Source: Nitrosopumilus sp.
Lineage (GTDB): Archaea; Thermoproteota; Nitrososphaeria; Nitrososphaerales; Nitrosopumilaceae
DNA length: 64,000 nt
Assembly: GCA_029862745.1 (NCBI GenBank)
Contig: JAOTWS010000003.1
Location: 124,001 to 188,000 of the forward strand
Direction: 5' to 3'
The notes under the pieces were generated by a model that saw only the letters and a list, made by a program, of their open reading frames with translations, made no database searches and was not told where the DNA came from. Position numbers and translations under genes: made by a program. Below, one piece after another: positions 4,321 to 56,399 of the stretch. Each line of letters opens with the position of its first letter. The stretch's first letter is position 1.

Positions 4321-5442
4321 TTAAGAGGAAATTTCATTCCGGAGTTTTTTCGTAACAGTACCTTCTATATTATCAAACAGAACCAACATCTTGTCTTTAT
4401 TTTCAATCAAATAGTCTTTGCCCCTATCTTTCAATCGTATTTTCCATAATCTAATCTCTCTATGTTCATCAAAGAAATTTTCAATCATTTGTTCTCCTGA
4501 TTTTGCAGGATCTATGAACACATCAAAAATCTCGATGGTTTTTTCAATGTCTTCTCCTTCAATAGATTCTTTAACGGCATGTATAGCTTGGCTTAGTTCT
4601 TTCAAATTTTTAACAGGTTTTGGTAATGTCTTTTTTGTAATTCCAAACAAACCTTTCTTTTCTTTACCAATTTTTTCTGCAACATTTGGTGCAAGATCAT
4701 AAATTGGAATTTTACTTAGACCATCACGTTTTTCATTTTGAACAATTAATCCTTTTTCTAATAATTTCTTTAAAGCGTTATCTGCATCAGCTTTGTCTAA
4801 AAATGTTGTCCAAACAATTGCACCTAATGTATGATATCCTTGTCTAATAGATTCTAAAACAACAACTTCTTGAATTCTTTTGAAACCTTCTTCAATTTTC
4901 ACATTCATGAAATCCTTATCTCTAATTGATTTTCTTGCATTTTTAACATCAATCTCAATTGAGCGTTTTAATGACTCTAATGATTCTGGTACTTGATTTA
5001 ACAAAGATAAGAAACATGCTTGATTATACCATGCCATCCCATATGTTGGATCTGATTCTATTGCCTTCTGAACTGCATCTAATGCTTTAGAATAATTTTT
5101 CTGTTCATAATGGACTAATCCTTTTAGATTCCATGCTTCGGGATTTGTTACATCTATGTCTAAAATTCTGTCGTATATTTTCAATGCCTCACTATGATCA
5201 TCAATGTGGAATCGGGCATACCCCAATTTCATCAGAGTTTCTATGTTATTAGGATCAATTCTTAATGCCTGTTCAAAAACTTCTATGGCTTCTTCAAGTT
5301 TTTCATCTGCCATTAAATTGATTCCACGTTTGAATAATTTTTTACGATTGTAATCTGAATCAACAATACTTGTCTCTTCTTTAGCGATCTTCTCTGGTTT
5401 CTCTGCTACTTTCTCTGATTTTTTTCTAAATAATTTTTTCAC
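4321..5442 (-). CDS. TPR-repeat protein with C-terminal winged-helix-like region
   Basis: A 373-residue soluble protein. After a Lys/Glu-rich N-terminus (1-30) come about four tetratricopeptide repeats (about 35-170) with the usual alternation, such as AWYNQACFLSLLNQ and GYARFHIDDHSEALKIYDRI. A region around 195-250 looks like a small winged helix (DNALKKLLEKGLIVQNEKR), followed by an alpha-helical C-terminus. TPRs mediate protein-protein contacts; the partner is unknown. Its stop codon is directly adjacent to the stop of the convergent rhodanese gene, with no spacer. No enzymatic motif seen. Confidence 0.85.
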   Translation of the reverse strand: MKKLFRKKSEKVAEKPEKIAKEETSIVDSDYNRKKLFKRGINLMADEKLEEAIEVFEQALRIDPNNIETLMKLGYARFHIDDHSEALKIYDRILDIDVTNPEAWNLKGLVHYEQKNYSKALDAVQKAIESDPTYGMAWYNQACFLSLLNQVPESLESLKRSIEIDVKNARKSIRDKDFMNVKIEEGFKRIQEVVVLESIRQGYHTLGAIVWTTFLDKADADNALKKLLEKGLIVQNEKRDGLSKIPIYDLAPNVAEKIGKEKKGLFGITKKTLPKPVKNLKELSQAIHAVKESIEGEDIEKTIEIFDVFIDPAKSGEQMIENFFDEHREIRLWKIRLKDRGKDYLIENKDKMLVLFDNIEGTVTKKLRNEISS

Positions 5443-5546
5443 TAGGACAAAATGTGTTTTTATCTAGATAAATACTATCTTAATTGAGCCTAATGGCACA
5501 TATCTGAAACTTGGGATGAGTTTAAGCGATCTAAATACAAAAATAC

Positions 5547-7352
5547 TTGAAATATACACAATCGTTTGTGTCATCTCAGCCACGAATAGAAATTCAAGGA
5601 CAGGCACCTTTCAAGCAATCAGGTGTCTACGAAGTCCAAATTGCAATTACTGAAAGTAAGCCTTCAGATGAGGTAATCCGAACAAAGCAATTCTCGTCTT
5701 TATGGAAAGGTAATTTTCATCTTCGGGTCAAAGAAGGGATGTTTTCTGAAACCCTTGGATCTCCATCTAATCCACTTCCTTCAGCAATTGCAAGTCTGGA
5801 TAAAATTTGGATTATAGTCAATGATCAATTCTCTTCATTACATTCTGTATTTGTTGTCCCTTTAGCAAGATCATCGCCATCTCAAACAGAAACTAAATCT
5901 ATCGAGGATCAACCAGTCAAGCGTTCTACGAAAACAAGTACTGAGTCTTCTCATTCCTATGGAAGTAGAGGTCCTGAAGGTCAACCTGGTCCACCAGGAG
6001 ATAAAGGTCCGACTGGAGTTATTGGTCCACCAGGAGATAAAGGTCCGCAGGGTCCAATTGGTCCACCAGGAGATAAAGGTCCGCAGGGTCCAATTGGTCC
6101 ACCAGGTCCAATTGGAGATAAAGGAGTTACAGGAGATAAAGGAGTTACAGGAGATAAAGGAGTTACAGGAGATAAAGGAGTTACAGGAGATAAAGGAGTT
6201 ACAGGAGATAAAGGAGATAAAGGAGATAAAGGAGTTACAGGTCCAATTGGAGAGAAAGGCGATAAAGGTCCAACAGGACAAATAGGCGATAAAGGTCCAA
6301 CAGGATTGAAAGGTCCAATTGGAGAGAAAGGCGATAAAGGTCCAACAGGATTATCGGGTGACAAAGGTCCAACAGGATTAAGAGGGTCTCCAGGAGAAAA
6401 AGGGGATAAAGGTCCGCAGGGAGTTATTGGTGATAAAGGTCCAACAGGATTAACAGGTCCAACAGGTGATAAAGGTTCAACAGGATTATCTGGTGTTCAA
6501 GGAGAAAAAGGGACTCAAGGTCCATCAGGTCCAATTGGGGATAAAGGCGAAAAAGGTCCAATTGGAGAGAAAGGTCTGCAGGGTCCAACAGGATTATCTG
6601 GAGATAAAGGATTAACAGGTTCCACAGGTCCAATTGGGGATAAAGGCGATAAAGGTCCGCAGGGTCCAATTGGAGAGAAAGGTCCAACAGGACAAACAGG
6701 ACCTTCGGGAGAGAAAGGTCTGCAGGGTCCGCAGGGTTCTGCAGGAGCTAAAGGGTTAACAGGAGTACCAGGACCACAAGGCGAAAAAGGCGATAAAGGT
6801 CAGCAGGGTCCAATTGGAGAGAAAGGCGTTAAAGGTGCTGAAGGACCAATCGGAGAGAAAGGTTCGCAGGGAGCACAAGGTCCGCAGGGTCCTGCAGGAG
6901 CTAAAGGGTTAACAGGAGTACCAGGACCACAAGGCGAAAAAGGCGATAAAGGTCCGCAGGGTCCAATTGGAGAGAAAGGTCCAACAGGACAAACAGGACC
7001 TTCGGGAGAGAAAGGTCCGCAGGGTCCGCAGGGTCCGCAGGGAGAACGTGGTCCAACAGGACCTTCGGGAGAGAAAGGTCCGCAGGGTCCGCAGGGGATT
7101 CAAGGTCCGCAGGGAGAACGTGGTCCAACAGGTTCTATTGGGCCTAGCGGTGATCAAGGCCCAGTAGGAGGACAAGGTCCAGTAGGTCCGCCAGGTCCAA
7201 GAGGTCCGCCAGGTCCGCCAGGAGAAAAAGGTCCATCAGGTGGAATGTCTCCCGAACAAAAAGCACTTTTCAAAGATTTGTTAGAAATTCTAACAAATAA
7301 AAATATGATTTCAACGGAAGAACAAATTAAATTGATGAGTTATCTTTATTGA
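5547..7352 (+). CDS. Collagen-like Gly-X-Y repeat protein
   Basis: A 601-residue protein in three parts. Residues 1-138 form a non-repetitive, probably globular domain ending in a Ser/Thr-rich linker. From Gly139 to Gly565 there are 142 uninterrupted Gly-X-Y triplets, mostly GPx, GDK, GEK, GPQ and GPT. About 36 residues follow the repeat. The Lys-Gly-Asp/Glu combinations stabilise triple helices in bacterial collagens that lack hydroxyproline. I see no signal peptide or membrane anchor, so location is unknown. Start is TTG 5547; GTG 5568 is a good alternative, since TAAATAC at 5531-5537 is about 35 nt upstream of it. Open frames on the opposite strand here are by-products of the repeats. Confidence 0.9.
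6114..6203 (+). repeat. Five perfect 18-bp tandem repeats in the collagen region
   Basis: The unit ggagataaaggagttaca occurs five times in a row without mismatch, encoding GDKGVT five times. It continues into three GDK triplets and a further GVT. Such identical units point to recent slippage or unequal exchange, so copy number probably varies between strains. Confidence 0.9.
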
Positions 7353-7636: not shown

Positions 7637-7849
7637 TCATCGTCTTTTTGCTGCTTTTCTCTTTGGAGCTGCTTTGCGTGTTGCTGCTTTTCTCTTTGGA
7701 GCTGCTTTGCGTGTTGCTGCTTTTCTCTTTGGAGCTGCTTTGCGTGTTGCTGCTTTTCTCTTTGGAGCTGCTTTGCGTGTTGCTGTTTTTCTTGCAGTAG
7801 ATTTAGATGTTGATCTACGTTTAGTTGCAGCTTTTCTCTTTATAGCCAT
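7637..7849 (-). CDS. Lys/Ala-rich histone H1-like basic protein
   Basis: A 70-residue protein made almost entirely of Lys, Arg, Ala, Thr and Pro, with no acidic residue. After an N-terminal MAIKRKAATKRRSTSKST segment it has four copies of an 11-residue unit (ATRKAAPKRKA). It resembles eukaryotic histone H1 tails and bacterial H1-like proteins (Hc1/AlgP type), so it probably binds DNA or RNA nonspecifically. It has no folded domain. The 33-bp DNA repeats encoding it are identical. It stands alone between long AT-rich spacers. Expression level and partner are unknown. Confidence 0.75.
   Translation of the reverse strand: MAIKRKAATKRRSTSKSTARKTATRKAAPKRKAATRKAAPKRKAATRKAAPKRKAATRKAAPKRKAAKRR
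7650..7781 (-). repeat. Four identical 33-bp tandem repeats
   Basis: The unit starts gctgcttttctctttggagc on the plus strand and repeats four times with a period of 33 bp. It encodes the 11-residue basic unit of the H1-like protein in frame on the minus strand. Confidence 0.92.
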
Positions 7850-8152: not shown

Positions 8153-9262
8153 TTATACTCCTCTTCTTTTGATAATTGTTAATACATCTTCATCTAGTAA
8201 AATGTGATTTAGACTTACTCTTTGTCCTCCAAATTTTACACTTTTACCCCAGACTAAACCATATCTAAATTCTTTTTTCAATCTTCTATGAAGTTTATTA
8301 CAAATATCTTCAACCGTATCTCCTTCTCTTGCAATCAATGGCTCTTTGAAATCTGTTTCTTCTCCTTTAGGCCTCATGTAAATCCTGATAAATTTCAATT
8401 TTTCATATATTTTCTCTTTGAGTAAATCGATGTTTGTATTTGAATTTGCAGATACTTCGATTACATCTGATTTTATTTTTGTTTTCAAATCTTTTAGAAA
8501 TTCTTGATCCACTAAATCAATTTTATTTAAAACTGTCAGTGCTTTTGAATAGCTTACATTTCCAGCAATATGATCTGCCAGTTGTTCTGATGTAAGATCT
8601 TCTCTTACTACTACACGCGCACTAACTAATCCATAAAGATGTAAGATGTCTTTAAGGTGCTTCTCAGTAATTTTTGTCAGTTTAACTTGTTGGGCAATTG
8701 CAATTCCACCCATAGATGCTTTTTCTATTGTGATGTTCGGAGGTAGTTGATTAAGCCTAATTCCAATATTTCCCAATTCATTTACCAAGACATCTTCATG
8801 AAAAGGTTGGAATACATCTAGTATGAGCAATACAAGATCAGCACTTCTTGCAACAGACAAAATTCTTTTTCCTAATCCCTTGCCTGTAGATGCACCTTTG
8901 ATAATTCCAGGAAGATCTAAAACTTGAATTCTTGCACCTCTATACTCCATCATCCCTGGCACAACTGTAAGAGTGGTAAATTGGAAAGCCCCAACTGTAG
9001 AATTTGCACTTGTCATTTTATTTAACAGCGTAGATTTTCCAACACTAGGTAATCCAATAAACACAACTGTTGCATCGCCACTTCTTCTTACATCAAATCC
9101 ATCTTGCTTAATCCCAGATTTCTTAGCTACATCAGCTTCTTGTTCTCTTTTAAGTTTAGCAATTTTTGCCTTTAACAGACCTATGTGATGCTCAGTGGCT
9201 TTATTGATCTGAGTTCTTGCCATTTCATCTTGAATGGCCTTTATCTTTTCAGGAATTCCCAA
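8153..9262 (-). CDS. drg: DRG/OBG-family GTPase with TGS domain
   Basis: A 369-residue translation-associated GTPase of the developmentally regulated GTP-binding type, expected to act on ribosomes. The N-terminal helical arm starts MGIPEKIKAIQDEMARTQ, the family signature. The G domain has G1 GLPSVGKST (70-78), G3 DLPG (116-119) and G4 NKID (246-249), with the inserted S5D2L-like segment between G3 and G4. The C-terminal part (about 290-369) is a TGS domain. Length and motifs are complete. The start at 9262 overlaps by 14 nt the end of a small upstream reading frame. Confidence 0.93.
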   Translation of the reverse strand: MGIPEKIKAIQDEMARTQINKATEHHIGLLKAKIAKLKREQEADVAKKSGIKQDGFDVRRSGDATVVFIGLPSVGKSTLLNKMTSANSTVGAFQFTTLTVVPGMMEYRGARIQVLDLPGIIKGASTGKGLGKRILSVARSADLVLLILDVFQPFHEDVLVNELGNIGIRLNQLPPNITIEKASMGGIAIAQQVKLTKITEKHLKDILHLYGLVSARVVVREDLTSEQLADHIAGNVSYSKALTVLNKIDLVDQEFLKDLKTKIKSDVIEVSANSNTNIDLLKEKIYEKLKFIRIYMRPKGEETDFKEPLIAREGDTVEDICNKLHRRLKKEFRYGLVWGKSVKFGGQRVSLNHILLDEDVLTIIKRRGV

Positions 9263-53111: not shown

Positions 53112-56100
53112 TTACTCTAAAGTTTTGTACGTTATCTTGTAATAAAACCGTGAAATCTGATCATCATCTTTGAGTATTTCAACAGTCCAAGTTTCATTGG
53201 GTAAAAATTCATCAGAAGACTCTGGCAAAATACTAAATTTTTCAAGACGTGCATCTGAACCACTATATCTAACATTCAGATGATTTCCATCAACTTCTAT
53301 AGTTTGGTAGATTTGTCCAGGAGTTCTAGTAGATTCATGTACCAAGCAATCATTATCACTAGGACCAATAACACAGATTCCACTGGAAGTAGAAACCTTA
53401 AGATCTACAAATGATTCATCTCCTCGTACTGAAGTTATCAAGGAACCAGCAAGTACTTTAGGCGCAATAGATGCAATATCAGTAGTTTTTTCTTCAGTCA
53501 ATATAGATATCGTATTTTCAGAGATTCTATTTTCCCTCTCAATTACAGTACTAGGTTTAATGGCTAGTGGTTTTTCTACAACATCAAATAAAATAGATTT
53601 AGTTTCAAAACCGGAATCAACTGTTATCTCATAAGAGCCAATTGCAGAAAAAGTGTCAGGAATTACAAATTGATAAGTAAATGATCCAGAAGAACTTGGG
53701 CGAATTGTAGTTACAGGGCCAGTATGTTTACCGCAATTAAATGTACCACAAGTAATTTGTGAGTCAGATTTTTTGATTATACTAACATCAAATTTTTCAA
53801 TATAGATCAACTTGTTTGGTTTTCCATTGATTTCCACTACATCACCAGGATAGTATTGGGTTTTATCGGTAGACAGTAAAAGAGTCACGGGTTTGTCAAC
53901 ACCAAGTGCATAATCATTTGCAACACTAAAAGTTGATTCACTACGTGCACTTCCATAAAGAGCTTTTATAGAATATGTCCCTTCAGGGAATACTGGTATT
54001 GGTAATTCAAAGAGACTGGTGAATTCTCCACCCTGATTAGGATAAACAGCAGATTCGTAAATTTGTTTTGCTGGGAATGAACCATCCAATACCTTAATTG
54101 TAACTCGCTGAGTAACAACAAGTCCCTCATCACCTTGTGTACGCTTTAGAACATTTCCTACAACTTTGAGTTTTTCTCCTGCCTGATACAATGATTTTTC
54201 AGTAGTTACGTATAGAGGAGATGTACTTAGAGTATCATTTTCTGGATCCTCGGAGACTTTGAAGAAAAGAGAGGTGCTCTCACTGCTAGTTGATACTTTA
54301 ATTTTGTAAACTCCAAAATTAGATTTGACTACATCTTTTCCCGTATTGACTTTGATATTCTGTACTTTTTCTGCAACAGGCGCAGTCCAAGACCAGGAGA
54401 AACGTTGATTATCAATAGTGGCTCCAGAAAGAACTTTTGTTCCATCAGGTTTTGTCAATGTAATAGTTACGGAAGCAGCACCTGTAGGAGGCATAATTCC
54501 AGTTAAATGAACAGTTTCACCTAGACCGTATACGTCTTTATCAACAGATATTATTGCACCATCTTTCAAATCAAGTGGATTAATTACCGAAAATGTTTTT
54601 GTTGCAACATGATTTGAAAATTGAGATTTTATGACATAGTTTCCTTCTGTAAATACACTTCTTGTCACATCTAAATTAAGCAAATAATTTCCAGATGTTT
54701 CAGGAATTGCTGTAAAAACATATGCAACAGCCACGTCATCGCTATATTTTGTTTGTGTACCAGATAAAGCCGTGATCTTTAACGGGGTTCCATCTTCATG
54801 TGAAATAGAAATTTTTACAGGTACGCCGGTTTTATAACTTGAATTACTGAGTGGATCTTTTATGAAACCACTAATAACCATTTTATCTCCAGGTTCATAA
54901 ACTTCTTTATCAGAATTAACTGTCAATGATGAATCAGAATCTACAAAACTCTCAGGATTGGAAACTACATGGATAATACTAGTTGCAGTACCAATACTTT
55001 TTGAAACGGTGATTTTATAATCACCTAATCGTAATTTATTGTCTGGAATTGTAAAACTATAAGCAAATGATCCATCACCCATAATTCTCACACCATCAGA
55101 AATCTTAAATCCAGAATTGCTGCCAGTAGAAGAACTTCCTATCGAAGATTGTTTTGTTTGAACAATCTCCAAATCCAAAGTGTTAACCCATTGCTGGTTT
55201 AGTCTACCAGTAATTTTGACTTGATCACCAAGAGCATAGGCTACCTTATCAGTCCAAATTGAAATTGGTACAGATTCTTTAATATCCTCTACTACATCAA
55301 AATTAACAGAGGTAGATTTACCTGAATATTCAGCATAAATTTCATAAGTTCCATAGACAGGTGTTACTGTGGATACATAGAAAGTAGTTTTGAATTCACC
55401 ATTAGTTGGATATAGATTTCCAACAGATACAACTTTGTTGTTAGAATTTTTTACAATCAATTTCATTCCCTCAAGAGGGATAATGTTTGAAGCATTTCCA
55501 GTGATTGTAACTGATTGGCCTGGAATGTATTGCGAGTTATCAGTGAATATGCTAAGCGAATCTTCAGCCTTTATTACTTGATCAGGAGTTTCATAACCTA
55601 CAGAAAAGTCAGTACTAGCATGTGCACCGGCATATGTGACAGATACATTGTATATTCCTTCATAAATTCCTAAAACTTGTCGTAGACTAAGTGTTGCTTT
55701 ATAATTAAGATTAAGATCAGGATACATAGTCATAACCTTGTTAAAATTTGGACCAGTGATAGTGATGGTAATTTGTTGAGGTTGAAAATATGGTTTCACA
55801 ATAAAAACTTGTTCAGATACACTACCACGAATTATAGCAGTTTCACCAAACAGATAAAAATCTTTTTCAGATGAAACAGAGACAGTAACATCATTTGATT
55901 CTTGAGTATTAACAAATTTGCCATTAGATGAACCAGCAGTTGATTTTGCGAATTTCCAATCAGTTAAAGTATCCAAGTCATAACCATCATAGATTCTCTG
56001 CCAAGATGTAAAATCATTTTTGATATCAGTAAGTATAGAAGTTTTATCAATGACAACACCATTTTTGTCTCTAAGTTCAACAGATTCATTAGAATCAGTA

Positions 56101-56399
56101 AACCAAAGATTTTGATAAGAATAAGTTAAAAATTGTCCAGATTTAATTACAGTTCCACTTGGTATGGTCATTGTTTTTTTCAAAACTGTAGTCGAGGCAA
56201 TTTTCCAACCACCCAAATCAACATTAGCATCTGTAGGGTTATAGAGTTCCACCCATTCAGTAATAGATGTTGAATCATTTCCTGGTGGATTGATATCTAC
56301 TTCATTGATTACGACATGATCAGCGGTTTGAGCATATACAGGTACGATAATTCCCACAAGCAAAAAAAGACAAAATACTAAAGGTAGATTACGATTCAT
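53112..56399 (-). CDS. Large secreted protein: lamin-tail domain plus seven Ig-like repeats
   Basis: 1095 residues with an N-terminal signal peptide ending near YAQTAD. Residues about 28-150 form a lamin-tail domain (VVINEVDINPPGND, WVELYNPTDANVDLGGWKIA). At least seven related beta domains of about 100 residues follow, each opening with a Y-x2-G-[DE]-x-V-x-I-x-G motif (for example YIPGQSVTITG, YALGDQVKITG, YYPGDVVEING). The order of repeats resembles MG2/bacterial Ig-like stalks. No C-terminal anchor seen. Probably a cell-surface or matrix protein; not obviously the S-layer protein itself. Confidence 0.85.
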   Translation of the reverse strand: MNRNLPLVFCLFLLVGIIVPVYAQTADHVVINEVDINPPGNDSTSITEWVELYNPTDANVDLGGWKIASTTVLKKTMTIPSGTVIKSGQFLTYSYQNLWFTDSNESVELRDKNGVVIDKTSILTDIKNDFTSWQRIYDGYDLDTLTDWKFAKSTAGSSNGKFVNTQESNDVTVSVSSEKDFYLFGETAIIRGSVSEQVFIVKPYFQPQQITITITGPNFNKVMTMYPDLNLNYKATLSLRQVLGIYEGIYNVSVTYAGAHASTDFSVGYETPDQVIKAEDSLSIFTDNSQYIPGQSVTITGNASNIIPLEGMKLIVKNSNNKVVSVGNLYPTNGEFKTTFYVSTVTPVYGTYEIYAEYSGKSTSVNFDVVEDIKESVPISIWTDKVAYALGDQVKITGRLNQQWVNTLDLEIVQTKQSSIGSSSTGSNSGFKISDGVRIMGDGSFAYSFTIPDNKLRLGDYKITVSKSIGTATSIIHVVSNPESFVDSDSSLTVNSDKEVYEPGDKMVISGFIKDPLSNSSYKTGVPVKISISHEDGTPLKITALSGTQTKYSDDVAVAYVFTAIPETSGNYLLNLDVTRSVFTEGNYVIKSQFSNHVATKTFSVINPLDLKDGAIISVDKDVYGLGETVHLTGIMPPTGAASVTITLTKPDGTKVLSGATIDNQRFSWSWTAPVAEKVQNIKVNTGKDVVKSNFGVYKIKVSTSSESTSLFFKVSEDPENDTLSTSPLYVTTEKSLYQAGEKLKVVGNVLKRTQGDEGLVVTQRVTIKVLDGSFPAKQIYESAVYPNQGGEFTSLFELPIPVFPEGTYSIKALYGSARSESTFSVANDYALGVDKPVTLLLSTDKTQYYPGDVVEINGKPNKLIYIEKFDVSIIKKSDSQITCGTFNCGKHTGPVTTIRPSSSGSFTYQFVIPDTFSAIGSYEITVDSGFETKSILFDVVEKPLAIKPSTVIERENRISENTISILTEEKTTDIASIAPKVLAGSLITSVRGDESFVDLKVSTSSGICVIGPSDNDCLVHESTRTPGQIYQTIEVDGNHLNVRYSGSDARLEKFSILPESSDEFLPNETWTVEILKDDDQISRFYYKITYKTLE

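Follow-up and report, generated by a model that had tools for sequence, protein, structure and literature searches.

The window, meaning the whole stretch of DNA analysed here, comprises 64,000 nucleotides of a Nitrosopumilus sp. genome (assembly GCA_029862745.1, contig JAOTWS010000003.1, positions 124,001 to 188,000 of the forward strand). It contains a collagen-like gene of 594 residues at 5568-7352 (+). The initial annotation had placed an archaeal collagen-like frame at 5547-7352 (+); this frame is open throughout, and its product matches the Pfam collagen family (PF01391) with 230 bits against a cut-off of 27.2, which identifies it as a collagen-like protein. All eight collagen matches in the genome fall within this frame, so that it is the sole gene with such matches.

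The start codon had to be corrected. The TTG at 5547, taken as the start in the initial annotation, sits within a conserved promoter-like box, and translation starts at GTG 5568, 21 bases further in. The box, AAATA(C/T)AAAAATACTT, is conserved in about 40 family members at a fixed distance (-35 to -20) before the GTG; the window carries it as AAATACAAAAATACTT (5533-5548, +), which resembles an archaeal BRE/TATA element. The start codon of the relatives is at the same fixed place, and several of them have an in-frame TAA upstream. The start was assigned to GTG 5568 because of the fixed distance of the box and these upstream TAA codons. The box might function as a promoter, and its location 20-35 bases 5' of the start is in keeping with leaderless or near-leaderless transcription. 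With the start set by this box, there is no concealed signal peptide further 5'.

The gene order is kept across genera: NirA, rhodanese, TPR protein (-), collagen gene (+), DRG GTPase (-), HAD phosphatase (+), and ArgS. In the window, the divergent neighbour at 4321-5442 (-) encodes a TPR protein with a winged-helix-like part, and this adjacency is kept in the family. The conserved downstream neighbour at 8153-9262 (-) encodes a DRG/OBG-type GTPase with a TGS domain. The short divergent intergenic stretch between the TPR and collagen genes (5443-5567) probably holds two opposed promoters. Some further frames were observed. The frame at 7637-7849 (-) encodes a 70-residue protein rich in Lys, Arg and Ala, in which the 11-residue unit AAPKRKAATRK occurs four times (33 bp in the DNA, 99% matches). 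This protein resembles a histone-H1-type DNA-binding tail, and only some members of the genus have it beside the collagen gene. Candidatus (Ca.) Nitrosotenuis chungbukensis has a 101-residue frame directly 3' of the collagen stop (L106, 3112-3417, +), and the window has no similar frame. A large protein of 1095 residues with a hydrophobic leader, encoded at 53112-56399 (-) of the window, is probably secreted or a surface protein. An anti-phage system was considered and rejected; PADLOC gave no meaningful match.

Architecture of the collagen-like family

The family members have a constant architecture, consisting of a β-sandwich head of about 98 residues, a linker, a collagen rod, and a near-invariant C-terminal helical hairpin. 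The window protein conforms to the family definition, with the head, rod, cap and hairpin in a single frame at the conserved locus. After the start correction, 131 residues precede the collagen, namely the domain of about 98 residues and a linker of about 30. The initial annotation had reported an N-terminal domain of 138 residues without assignment; the lack of an assignment holds for Pfam and the PDB, but the length does not.

The head (5571-5876, +) was confidently predicted by AF2 to be a β-sandwich (pLDDT 92.1, pTM 0.83, modelled residues 2-103). Nothing significant was found for this domain in Pfam, in the PDB by sequence, or by Foldseek (PDB, BFVD). The best Foldseek match, a weak one, is the ligand-binding region of the bacterial adhesin SgrA (E 0.088, TM 0.54), and there are also weak resemblances to viral proteins (best E 0.011). 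The linker (5877-5960, +) is rich in Ser/Thr/Glu/Lys, varies between species by sequence comparison, and is probably disordered. The C-terminal 34 residues (7248-7349, +) are near-invariant, and AF2 predicts two helices for them. This helical hairpin is proposed to be a trimerisation or docking module. SHOCT, which was considered for this module, was rejected; no Pfam SHOCT match was found in 17 members at E values up to 10.

The collagen domain (5961-7247, +) is defined by the PF01391 match and by Gly periodicity. It has Gly at every third position 143 times in succession (Gly139 to Gly565 in the earlier numbering), and thus 143 unbroken Gly-X-Y triplets. The initial annotation counted 142 uninterrupted triplets over the same interval, which agrees with this number, as the run consists of 142 triplets plus a final Gly-Gly-Met. 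A single unbroken run is found in 90/90 distinct full-length members; a script counted 89 of these, and in the other one, L103, the apparent breaks are ambiguous X residues. Over the family, the X position is Pro in 40% and Asp/Glu in 30%; the Y position is Lys in 28%, Gln in 16%, Thr in 13%, and Pro in 13%. Every member has at most one Cys, and most have none. Motifs of the rod are kept between genera, above all close to its C-terminal end. A conserved collagen cap at this end (7194-7247, +), whose pattern is present in 53 of 60 representatives, may be where the triple helix nucleates.

The run length varies from 68 to 185 triplets, with a mode of 124 (19 of 90 members). The groups differ, with 68-69 triplets in Marine Group I strains and 185 in one Cenarchaeum chromosome. 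The length is constrained despite the slippage-prone repeat sequence, since 33/90 members have 122-125 triplets. Two local repeats were found in the window gene: an 18-bp tandem array of seven copies encoding Gly-Asp-Lys-Gly-Val-Thr (GDKGVT), a local expansion (6114-6241, +); and a locally duplicated 153-bp unit in about 2.1 copies with 87% matches (6726-7042, +). These two repeats probably explain the excess of the window member over the usual 124 triplets. Misassembly, which had been named as a reason to doubt the repeat, is excluded for the repeat generally, because it recurs in many independent assemblies, some of them closed or single-contig chromosomes. The exact copy number of the GDKGVT array depends on the assembly.

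Distribution, selection and origin

Collagen matches were found in 214 of 250 Nitrosopumilaceae genomes, including 124 of the 131 high-quality ones, and in 22/22 genera. The collagen gene belongs to the core genome of the Nitrosopumilaceae, as a single copy in conserved synteny. Long runs of this kind had been called uncommon in archaea, which is incomplete; the gene is no rare oddity in this lineage. Even two genomes of 0.8 Mb (G307, G309) retain it. Many genomes without a match have contigs that end at the locus, either in the head domain, in the TPR gene, or right beside the latter (G041, G005, G253, G034, G160, G162, G166, G258, G279, G280). Four genomes have other genes beside the TPR gene (G018, G177, G180, G200). 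The TPR orthologue is also missing in G015 and G079, where the locus is absent or unassembled. Beyond the Nitrosopumilaceae, collagen is patchy in the wider order.

Searches of archaeal genomes with the two termini found relatives family-wide, with a lineage-specific head and a near-invariant C-terminus. The N-terminal region was matched by 77/150 relatives, all from the window's own genus. A head-domain profile searched over 400 genomes of the class matched 22 of 82 genera, normally once per genome, and all the listed matches are from the Nitrosopumilaceae. The named relatives from the C-terminal module search include Nitrosopumilus, Nitrosarchaeum, Ca. Nitrosotenuis chungbukensis, Cenarchaeum, Ca. 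Nitrosopelagicus, and Marine Group I single-cell genomes, all of them Nitrosopumilaceae. The open literature searched contained no description of the family.

For the analysis of selection, the 19 members that have exactly 124 triplets were compared. All their Gly residues are conserved, while the Gly codon varies synonymously at 123 of the 124 aligned positions. The median dN/dS is lowest in the C-terminus (0.05), followed by the N domain (0.15) and the collagen (0.19); saturated pairs were excluded, and a few N-domain pairs may be misaligned by one residue. Unbroken Gly runs with turnover of the Gly codons indicate that the collagen gene is under strong purifying selection. A functionless repeat that is open by chance, or an assembly artefact, would fit the internal tandem duplications; this reading has a negligible probability and is refuted by the codon evidence and by the agreement of many independent assemblies.

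Four genomes, which represent two further families of the order, have the TPR, HAD and ArgS genes close together, and no collagen gene lies between or beside them in the stretch examined. The TPR orthologue therefore predates the collagen gene. In the simplest history, the collagen gene would have arisen, or been inserted, a single time beside the TPR gene on the Nitrosopumilaceae stem, and would then have been kept.

Cellular location and relation to known collagen-like proteins

No hydrophobic leader, transmembrane segment, or LPXTG motif was found in any of the 90 members by hydropathy and motif analysis. The Kyte-Doolittle peak (12 residues within the first 45) is 0.46 in the window protein and at most 1.75 in the family, compared with 2.4-2.65 in secreted controls, which supports the earlier statement that no signal peptide is visible. 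The controls are unrelated collagen-like proteins of the same archaea with ordinary hydrophobic leaders. Because there is no export signal, the cytoplasm is the most likely setting, and the protein is probably cytoplasmic. Other family genomes encode such additional, leader-bearing proteins, e.g. L069 (7456-9030, +) and L076 (4742-8308, -), which served as the secreted controls. They share the Gly-X-Y repeat with the window protein, but have leaders, only 16-21 triplets, and different flanks.

The genome of the window has no match to a prolyl hydroxylase of the PF13640 type and no lysyl oxidase, and a hydroxylated or cross-linked collagen was rejected for it. The lack of these matches and the low Cys content of the family likewise favour a cytoplasmic protein. 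Lysyl oxidase was found in 7 of the 61 genomes searched. A lysyl-oxidase-like gene (PF01186) is present in some Nitrosopumilus genomes (G002, G004, G007, G012, G024, G027, G035).

The streptococcal adhesins Scl1/SclA (NF038330) and Scl2/SclB (NF038329) resemble the window protein in having a globular N-terminal head and long perfect Gly-X-Y runs without hydroxyproline. The similarity is at the level of the repeat HMM, and the scores are below the curated cut-offs (254.1/400 bits for NF038330; 241.6/325 bits for NF038329). Their heads are not related by sequence to the archaeal head as far as the searches show. The Scl adhesins carry a signal peptide and are anchored to the wall by LPXTG; neither feature was found in the archaeal protein. 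BclA of the Bacillus exosporium forms a trimeric collagen filament and lacks a classical signal peptide. Its head is C-terminal and C1q-like, and a motif for exosporium targeting lies at its N-terminus; in the archaeal protein, the head is N-terminal, the C-terminus is a helical hairpin, and no spores are involved. The animal fibrillar collagens also contain a long perfect Gly-X-Y domain with a Pro-rich C-terminal end suited to nucleation. The archaeal protein differs from them in lacking an export route, in the absence of PF13640 and lysyl oxidase matches from the window's genome, and in its other end domains. Collagen-like proteins are already known; what is new is a signal-less archaeal collagen that belongs to the core of a whole family and has end domains of its own.

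Possible functions of the collagen-like rod

The reading we prefer, which we hold to be about an even bet, is that this lineage-specific single-copy core gene encodes a homotrimeric collagen-like rod, not exported by any recognisable route, which serves as an intracellular spacer, tether or scaffold. From collagen chemistry, a trimer with a rise of about 0.286 nm per residue, nucleated at the Pro-rich C-terminal end, would be expected. Judged from the sequences, the C-terminal helical hairpin and the collagen cap may align and nucleate three chains, which would zip from the C-terminus toward the N-terminus. The triple helix might be stabilised by unhydroxylated Pro in the X position and by Lys-Gly-Asp/Glu contacts. 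With this rise, 124 triplets, the common number, would give a stiff rod about 106 nm long, and the window protein one of 123 nm. The rod would end in the flexible linker and three β-sandwich heads, which might be binding heads. By conjecture, the most likely task of such a rod would be to hold two partners about 0.1 μm apart in the cell, as a spacer, tether or scaffold. The spread of 68-185 triplets between genera argues against one universal ruler length.

The protein may instead act at the cell surface, as a fibre or adhesin that reinforces the S-layer or binds surfaces, after export without a signal by an unrecognised route. This reading, the main rival, is possible but clearly less probable than the intracellular one. 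Most known bacterial collagen-like proteins are surface-located, and the weak SgrA match of the head would fit a surface role, against the cytoplasmic reading. In a study of hypo-osmotic stress (PMC13037477), 'LPXTG-anchored collagen-like adhesins' were more highly expressed at low salinity; the proteome of strain MY2 of Ca. N. chungbukensis contained one such adhesin, and a role in the S-layer was proposed. Strain MY2 does carry the core gene. However, it also has two further collagen-coding places, so the protein detected may not be that of the core gene. The label 'LPXTG-anchored' is itself the NCBIfam output for any such repeat below its own cut-off (254 bits against 400), and leader, transmembrane segment and LPxTG are all missing from the family.

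A functional pair with the divergent TPR/winged-helix protein was also considered, in which the head would dock on the TPR protein and the rod would carry it to a distant site. The divergent adjacency is maintained family-wide, and the conserved rod motifs, one of which is present in 42/60 representatives, may be binding sites. However, the sister lineages have the TPR orthologue without the collagen gene, and in four genomes of the family different genes lie beside the TPR gene. The other neighbours of the collagen gene are conserved too, so the adjacency alone is weak evidence, and such a pair is unlikely.

An equally doubtful extension of the cytoplasmic reading is a collagen skeleton, in which the trimeric rod of about 0.1 μm would span or brace the very thin rod-shaped cell, and help to set its width or to position the nucleoid or membrane. 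The gene would have a single origin on the family stem and is absent from the sister-lineage loci examined. Rod-shaped cells of the Nitrosopumilaceae and coccoid cells of the Nitrososphaeraceae have been contrasted (PMC13037477). A link to cell shape is conjectural, and would rest on a single evolutionary event.

The protein is very improbably a domesticated viral fibre protein. The weak Foldseek resemblances of the head to viral proteins would agree with such an origin, and collagen repeats are common in phage tail fibres. However, the head and C-terminal module have no relatives in viral contigs, phage or plasmid records, or PHROGs, and the gene has a fixed chromosomal place across the whole family. 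A viral or plasmid origin is therefore disfavoured.

In animals, collagen is usually regarded as an extracellular material, and in some bacteria and phages as a surface or fibre protein. Here, a long collagen that lacks an export signal is part of the core genome of an archaeal family to which many of the most abundant ocean microbes belong. An intracellular protein would put the triple helix to an unusual use; an exported one would point to an unknown export route. Either location could be checked directly in cultured strains. In the Nitrosopumilaceae, collagen looks like a conserved, probably internal structural part, and not an oddity.
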